From positions 1 through 44,983 of the forward strand of contig JAHDSB010000015.1 in NCBI GenBank assembly GCA_018433015.1: a stretch of 44,983 nt of DNA, read 5' to 3'. A program made the position numbers and the translations under genes. The stretch is from Clostridia bacterium (lineage in GTDB: Bacteria > Bacillota > Peptococcia > DRI-13 > SV3-B141). The notes beneath the pieces are model-generated. The model made no database searches, was not told the DNA's origin, and worked only from the letters and a program-made list of their open reading frames with translations. Each line of letters begins with the position of its first letter. Position 1 is the stretch's first letter. Positions 27,722 through 28,791 of this stretch are shown here, one piece after another.

Positions 27722-27931
27722 TTACTTAACTGGATCATATCCACCCGGATGAAAGGGATGACATTTAAGTATACGTTTAATTGCTAAATAGCATCCTTTA
27801 TAAGGCCCAAACTTTAAAATAGCCTGGTAAGTATACTCTGAACAAGTTGGATAGAAACGACAAGTAGGCCCTTTTAATGGAGAAATATATTTTTGATATA
27901 TCCGGACCAAGGTAAGTAACACTCTTTTCAT
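27722..27931 (-). CDS. yidD: Membrane protein insertion efficiency factor YidD
   Basis: This small basic protein of 69 residues assists YidC-dependent insertion. The family pattern is complete: [20 protein letters not shown]-like N-terminal part (here [20 protein letters not shown]), [14 protein letters not shown], then the His/Pro-rich [11 protein letters not shown] tail. ATG at 27931 is chosen; a GTG one codon earlier (27934) touches the rnpA stop and is equally possible. It lies between rnpA and yidC, the universal order. Confidence 0.93.
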
Positions 27932-27933
27932 CA

Positions 27934-28289
27934 CTATTCATCCCTATTTAAATTTAATAAATGTGCTTTCTTTAATAGAATCCCAATATTTTTTTCAATT
28001 TCATGCAAAGACATACCAATGATTCTATTACGCGCTATTAAAATTATATCACAAGATTTATCAATATAGTGGATATATGGCTTTATAGCATGTCTCATTT
28101 GCCGTTTTATTCTATTTCTTAATACGGCTGTACCTAGCTTTTTAGCTACAGCAAAACCAATTCTCGAATTCTTACTATCTTCCCTTTTATATGAATAAAG
28201 TACTAAATAAGGATTTGCTATAGATTTTCCCTTACGATGAATTTTTCTGAAATCTTCTTTTTTTTTAATCGATATTTATATGGTAACAA
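27934..28289 (-). pseudogene. rnpA: Ribonuclease P protein component RnpA, interrupted by a one-base shift
   Basis: RnpA is the protein subunit of RNase P. Frame 1 starts at TTG 28289 (AAGGTGG five bases upstream) and reads LPYKYRLKK, then enters an A9 tract (28266-28258 on the minus strand). The protein continues in another frame as KEDFRKIHRKGKSIANPYL and onward through the signature RNRIKRQMRHAIKPYI to TAG at 27936-27934. One extra A would give an intact 118-residue RnpA with the usual RLKKKEDF start. Frame 1 itself stops soon after the tract. The rest shows no damage, and rnpA is normally essential, so a homopolymer sequencing error or slippage-dependent expression is more likely than a dead gene. 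It lies between rpmH and yidD as expected. Confidence 0.88.
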
Positions 28290-28364
28290 TAATACCACCT
28301 TAATTTTATTATTTTACTATTACTATTTTACCCTAATACAACTAAAAGGCCACATCAAGCGGCC

Positions 28365-28499
28365 TTAAGCTGATAATTTTTTTCTTCCTTTCGTACGTCT
28401 ACGTTTTAAAACGTTCCGCCCACCTTGACTCTTCATCCTATTAAGAAATCCATGAACTCTTTTATGCTTACGGTTCTTGGGCTGATAAGTTCTTTTCAA
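28365..28499 (-). CDS. rpmH: 50S ribosomal protein L34
   Basis: This 44-residue basic ribosomal protein reads [17 protein letters not shown] then [20 protein letters not shown], essentially the L34 consensus. Start TTG at 28499 is preceded by GGAGG at about eight bases; longer in-frame extension to 28610 is not protein-like and overlaps the promoter. It is the first gene of the leftward rpmH-rnpA-yidD-yidC-khpB operon and faces dnaA across the origin. Confidence 0.96.
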
Positions 28500-28563
28500 T
28501 ACTAACACCTCCTGCCAAAGCACCATCCCGTACATTTTCATTTTTTTTGTCACATACAAAAAA

Positions 28564-28592
28564 ATTATAAAGCAGACTGGATTAGATGTCAA
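28564..28592 (-). promoter_or_regulatory. Consensus sigma-A promoter of rpmH
   Basis: Minus strand TTGACA (28592-28587), 17-base spacer, TATAAT (28569-28564): a perfect vegetative promoter 65 bases before the rpmH start. The nearest DnaA box begins 11 bases upstream of the -35. Confidence 0.85.
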
Positions 28593-28602
28593 GAATAATA
28601 GT

Positions 28603-28791
28603 TTATCCACGAATTGTGGATAACTTATGGTTTTGTTTGTGTATAAAGATTAATTATTGTTGATAACTTAAACTAATTCTGGTATGATGTTAACAAAAAG
28701 CGGTGTTTAACCACATAATTATCCACATCTTGTGGACAACTATGTGGATAATTTATTATATCATTATATATTTATGTTTTGTTGTGGATTA
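28603..28791. other. oriC: Replication origin, upstream DnaA-box cluster
   Basis: Between rpmH and dnaA there are three perfect TTATCCACA boxes: minus at 28615-28623, plus at 28719-28727, minus at 28743-28751. There are also single-mismatch boxes at 28603-28611, 28658-28666, 28707-28715, 28731-28739 and 28783-28791. Such a cluster beside dnaA is the first half of the bipartite Firmicutes origin and probably also autoregulates dnaA. The 120 bases from there to dnaA are AT-rich, with no further clear signal. Confidence 0.93.

Follow-up and report, generated by a model that had tools for sequence, protein, structure and literature searches.

Most known cases of slippage decoding in bacteria involve mobile elements, genes with two products, or the decaying genomes of endosymbionts. 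E. coli dnaX undergoes -1 ribosomal frameshifting on A_AAA_AAG, a heptamer flanked by a Shine-Dalgarno-like element on its 5′ side and a hairpin on its 3′ side. In Thermus thermophilus dnaX, by comparison, mRNAs with several tract lengths arise from an A9 run and about half of the product is made by slippage (PMC1088944); in that gene the genomic frame encodes the full-length protein, with slippage yielding a second, shorter product. In many bacterial genomes, selection against slippage-prone runs becomes visible at a length of nine, and the same work argues that homologues which conserve the length of an A9 run probably use it for slippage (PMC1088944). A single base is the commonest transcription insertion in A/T runs (PMC5574713). 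Polymerase slippage can further restore expression of genes that are interrupted by an out-of-frame A tract and otherwise undecayed, as described for pseudo-pseudogenes (PMC1088944) and for Blochmannia genes (PMC3017870); these cases come from reduced endosymbiont genomes or scattered single strains. Finally, a report on Citrobacter rodentium tssM (PMC4256274) describes transcriptional frameshifting in a homopolymer-interrupted secretion-system gene of one species, where two length variants are made.

The rnpA gene described here shares features with each of these systems. Like Thermus dnaX, it places an A9 run within a bacterial housekeeping gene; unlike Thermus dnaX, its genomic frame appears to lack a functional product, and slippage would give the sole one. 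It resembles the pseudo-pseudogenes and endosymbiont genes in being undecayed apart from an A tract that puts it out of frame, but it differs from them in encoding the RNase P protein, in residing in genomes of about 3.8-4.4 Mb, and in that the split is conserved across a genus and recurs at the identical codon in another lineage. Like tssM it is homopolymer-interrupted, and with E. coli dnaX it has in common an in-phase A_AAA_AAG heptamer, whereas neither an upstream element nor a downstream hairpin is convincing. The open-access collection searched contained no paper on rnpA frameshifting, and rnpA goes unmentioned in the main text of the GeneTack survey. Our comparisons indicate that the essential RnpA of this bacterium and, independently, of three species in a distant genus is very probably made only through polymerase or ribosome slippage on a tract of A9-A10. 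In these genomes of normal size, an essential housekeeping gene appears to owe its only product to slippage.

The window, a stretch of 44,983 nucleotides, is one whole contig (C137) and covers the dnaA region of a 3.75 Mb, 99%-complete genome in 197 contigs. Its minus strand carries an rpmH, rnpA, yidD, yidC cluster in the usual gene order (Table 1). As the sequence-only reading had described, a TTG start with a ribosome site leads into RLKK and nine A, after which RnpA continues in the next frame. Frame 0 translates as MLPYKYRL, four lysines and ISEKFIVRENL, a total of 23 codons, and then meets TAG. The -1 frame is open from the A9 tract to TAG 27936-27934, overlapping the yidD start, and has no start of its own because TAA 28278-28276, a short distance 5′ of the tract, closes it; inspection of the window sequence found no ATG, GTG or TTG in this frame before the conserved core. 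Together with the following G, the A9 tract forms A_AAA_AAG in phase (28263-28257, minus strand), a feature absent from the earlier reading.

Table 1. Sequence features of the split rnpA locus and its neighbors in the window.
Feature	Position	Strand	Remarks
Shine-Dalgarno AAGGTGG of rnpA	28295..28301	-	5 nt ahead of start codon; from sequence
rnpA start TTG	28289-28287	-	from sequence
Frame-0 ORF: TTG, MLPYKYRLKKKKISEKFIVRENL, TAG 28220-28218	28218..28289	-	true RnpA N terminus; start region kept in frame 0 in g72 relatives
Putative A9 slippage tract, codons 8-11	28258..28266	-	exactly nine A; A10, A10 and A9 at the equivalent site in G087, G124 and G237
RnpA core in -1 frame, intact to normal C terminus	27934..28266	-	PF00825 E 4.1e-26 in genome search
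TAA closing the RnpA -1 frame just 5′ of the tract	28276..28278	-	from sequence
yidD (membrane insertion factor family)	27722..27934	-	overlaps rnpA stop; assigned from gene order and sequence, no family search
rpmH (ribosomal protein L34), upstream neighbor	28365..28499	-	start inferred within listed ORF 28365-28610

One extra A restores a 118-residue protein, as had been claimed, and this -1-shifted product matches whole-domain profiles: PF00825 with 100.5 bits over profile positions 1-108 of 109 (93.4 bits for the -1 frame alone), and NCBIfam TIGR00188 with 77.8 bits against a cutoff of 38.35. The RNR-type core motif LRNRIKRQMR is present, and the rpmH-rnpA-yidD-yidC order lies near dnaA. 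In intact relatives, the spacing from the L to the DF motif is four residues, which is what a net -1 change gives in the window; a -2 change, which would leave one residue too few, therefore does not fit. A second intact rnpA elsewhere in the chromosome would have spoken against the earlier reading, but a profile search of the 99%-complete genome returned a single match and no further copy. The genome also carries an intact type-A RNase P RNA (316 bits), and the search for a type-B RNA gave only a weak match at the type-A locus.

The strongest evidence comes from a second genus. In a survey of the phylum, G087 and G124, which belong to a single genus, stood out with a too-short rnpA frame, and G237 was added as the one further family member in the genome collection; these are the three species compared in genus g72, which belongs to family f54 in another class of the same phylum. 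All three have one rnpA each (L208 in G087, L209 in G237, L210 in G124), and the position and direction of its split match those in the window to the codon. A G-rich site precedes the ATG start, MLQK(K/Q)YRL is encoded in frame 0, and beyond the tract — A10-G in G087 and G124, A9-C in G237 — RnpA follows in the -1 frame, which in 3/3 species is closed by TAG just 5′ of the tract and has no start. In two of these species the tract is the sole A/T run of at least 10 in the sequence sampled, 400 kb of G124 (G124:C19:281759) and 356 kb of G087 (L289:8231).

Selection acts on both sides of the tract. Nucleotide differences in rnpA among the g72 species amount to 15-20%, and dN/dS in the -1 frame past the tract is 0.175, 0.128 and 0.136 among the three species (pS 0.41-0.54, that is, 41-54% of synonymous sites changed), compared with 0.67-1.48 in the remaining two frames; differences in the short frame-0 N terminus are likewise mostly synonymous. 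Because purifying selection is seen in both the frame-0 N terminus and the -1 frame, it looks as if the two parts are translated as one joined protein, while the DNA has stayed out of frame throughout this divergence. Heavy synonymous change on both sides, with the frames kept, rules out a sequencing error or a fresh pseudogene in g72. Moreover, G237 replaces its sister's A10-G with A9-C at unchanged length, so the frame has been kept despite an altered tract.

Relatives of both lineages retain ordinary genes. The relatives read from the order of the window all have an intact rnpA — the comparison that had been proposed at the outset — and the nearest of them (L006, L016) have lysine codons interrupted by AAG; rnpA is also intact in the nearest other family of the g72 class (G248/L268), the sole other one compared. 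Because near relatives of the window and of g72 have intact genes, the split appears to have arisen at least twice independently at the same codon, and the slippage-dependent state appears stable over substantial species divergence. Recurrence beyond the window rests on the three species of one genus: a split-spacing pattern run across 398 genomes of the phylum matched rnpA only in the window genome and in these species, its other matches falling in unrelated places. No split rnpA was found among 341 genomes in the class of Clostridium (L053) or 300 in the class of Mesobacillus (L036), where only intact rnpA or unrelated sites matched; the patterns require a six-A run and certain residues, such that some split genes would escape them, and the Clostridium-class pattern would not match the window's own sequence.

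We judge it probable, though well short of assured, that the window rnpA is a real gene whose frame changes at A9, with RNA polymerase slippage as the most likely mechanism. From the selection on both parts we infer that RnpA is produced from the split gene, and from the features common to the four tracts that polymerase rather than ribosome slippage is responsible. The tract would be read one nucleotide longer in a fraction of expression events, yielding full-length RnpA: some rnpA mRNAs would gain one A (or 1+3n) from RNA polymerase, and the lengthened mRNAs would be translated normally by ribosomes, while unslipped mRNAs in the window bacterium would give a 23-residue dead-end peptide. Common to the four split genes is an uninterrupted run of at least nine A; no one heptamer or structure is common to them. 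Polymerase slippage is placed first because of this shared run, together with the lack of a common heptamer or a consistent stimulator. Set against the proposal that conserved A9 length marks use for slippage (PMC1088944), the g72 genes conserve the frame, and their tract length varies by one end substitution only.

Ribosomal frameshifting is an unlikely but serious alternative, in which tRNA-Lys in the P and A sites would slip back by one base and join the N terminus to RnpA on an unchanged mRNA; the two kinds of slippage could also both contribute. A slippery heptamer is in phase in 4/4 cases (A_AAA_AAG in the window, A_AAA_AAA in G087 and G124, A_AAA_AAC in G237), and because A_AAA_AAR or A_AAA_AAC is present in all four, sequence cannot separate polymerase from ribosome slippage. 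The window version, known as the shift site of E. coli dnaX, ranks with the heptamers most prone to shifting (PMC5009743). However, an in-phase heptamer arises automatically when the tract has one A less, and its A-site codon varies — AAG in the window, AAA in G087, AAA in G124, AAC in G237 — and in E. coli heptamers ending in AAA or AAC shift far less readily than the one ending in AAG (PMC5009743). Less slippage on AAG is also expected in the window bacterium because its genome encodes a separate tRNA-Lys CUU.

Signs of a stimulator for such a shift were not seen in the window and are faint and variable in g72. No Shine-Dalgarno-like element lies ~10 nt upstream in the sequence, and the region downstream folds no better than shuffled controls do, both in the window (z 1.41) and in 2/3 g72 species, G087 alone falling below them (z -2.26). 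Just past the tract, columns 3-9 / 69-75 of the g72 alignment (A1) may form a 7-pair stem, with one compensatory pair among the three sequences; taken singly, only G087 favors this stem. Unstimulated -1 heptamers in E. coli reach 2-10 fold over a 0.055% background, i.e. well under 1% (PMC4066793), a figure that, like the other slippage and frameshift rates cited here, comes from other organisms.

It is rather improbable that the window's A9 reflects an assembly or read error, with the chromosomal tract in frame and rnpA ordinary there. Long A tracts are the usual site of such errors, one error among the hundreds of A8+ runs per genome would not be odd, and the A9 is a single observation from one strain's assembly, with no member of its genus or family among the comparison genomes. 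Other A8-A9 coding runs in this assembly nevertheless keep frame. In an 842 kb sample of the window genome, all A9/T9 runs within strong ORFs are in frame, as are 36/38 A/T runs flanked by coding sequence, the two exceptions reading by eye as the beginning of a gene and as an intergenic site resembling a terminator; no confirmed homopolymer frameshift besides rnpA was found in these 842 kb. The same control gave 16/16 runs in frame in G124 and 3/4 in G087, where the exception reads as an ordinary gene start. These controls make an error in the window assembly less likely, while a single one is still compatible with them. In addition, the identical split is fixed in three g72 species, which error cannot explain and which raises the prior for a genuine split in the window. 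The sequence-only reading had weighed a homopolymer read error against slippage; the g72 comparison strongly favors slippage, leaving an error with a low probability for the window taken alone.

A frame-shift Viterbi scan of the window genome, which poorly detects splits near gene starts, returned 130 frame changes; almost every one came with a start codon and a ribosome site, as normal gene overlaps do. Candidates were judged by eye with no family searches: of 15 frame changes with no obvious start, none fell at A/T runs of at least 7, and those inspected read as gene boundaries or repeat proteins. Separately, at L124:6487, a PIG-L-type deacetylase ORF carries a G6 run close to its beginning, and a GTG preceded by a ribosome site lies in another frame; the gene may simply be ordinary and start at a later ATG.

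Far less probable is that the tract varies in phase, or that the clone sequenced had recently lost the frame, whereby replication slippage would flip the tract and part of the population would be in frame. A tract of 9-10 A is mutable, and in-frame A8-A9 rnpA genes are common in relatives (9/82 with A8 or more), yet 3/3 g72 species are in the identical out-of-frame state, including one with A9-C for A10-G at unchanged length, and out-of-frame clones are not expected to grow without slippage because rnpA is normally essential. A start at ATT just before the tract, with no change of frame (the window's -1 frame reads ATT AAA AAA AAA GAA GAT), is scarcely credible and was rejected: G087 also has ATT, but G124 and G237 have ACT at the equivalent place, no ribosome site lies at the right distance, and the frame-0 N terminus is conserved through synonymous change in g72.

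The split probably originated when a mutable Lys-codon tract lost one A in an ancestor whose rnpA was in frame; slippage would then have supplied enough RnpA for the state to become fixed, a neutral view that is the simplest. A more ambitious proposal, which we offer only tentatively, is that in several Bacillota-type lineages with normal-sized genomes slippage at an A9-A10 tract is the sole source of RnpA, and that selection keeps the gene out of frame as setting or regulating RnpA output, for instance through a link to the speed of the polymerase or to nucleotide pools. The sequence-only reading had already suggested that slippage could tune RNase P levels. In either case, the split gene would provide a clean natural system for measuring the need for RnpA and the frequency of polymerase slips. 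Annotation pipelines may call such rnpA genes pseudogenes, truncated, broken or missing. The rnpA lysine tract is a natural hot spot for splitting, since the 9/82 relatives noted above carry eight or nine in-frame A's at the equivalent site. The tract alone does not prove use of slippage, because some intact rnpA genes carry A9-A10 in frame as well. One such gene, at L211 (G209) on the minus strand, is an intact in-frame rnpA with A10 at the equivalent site, which serves as a control for assembly of an in-frame A10 and is one deletion away from the split state.
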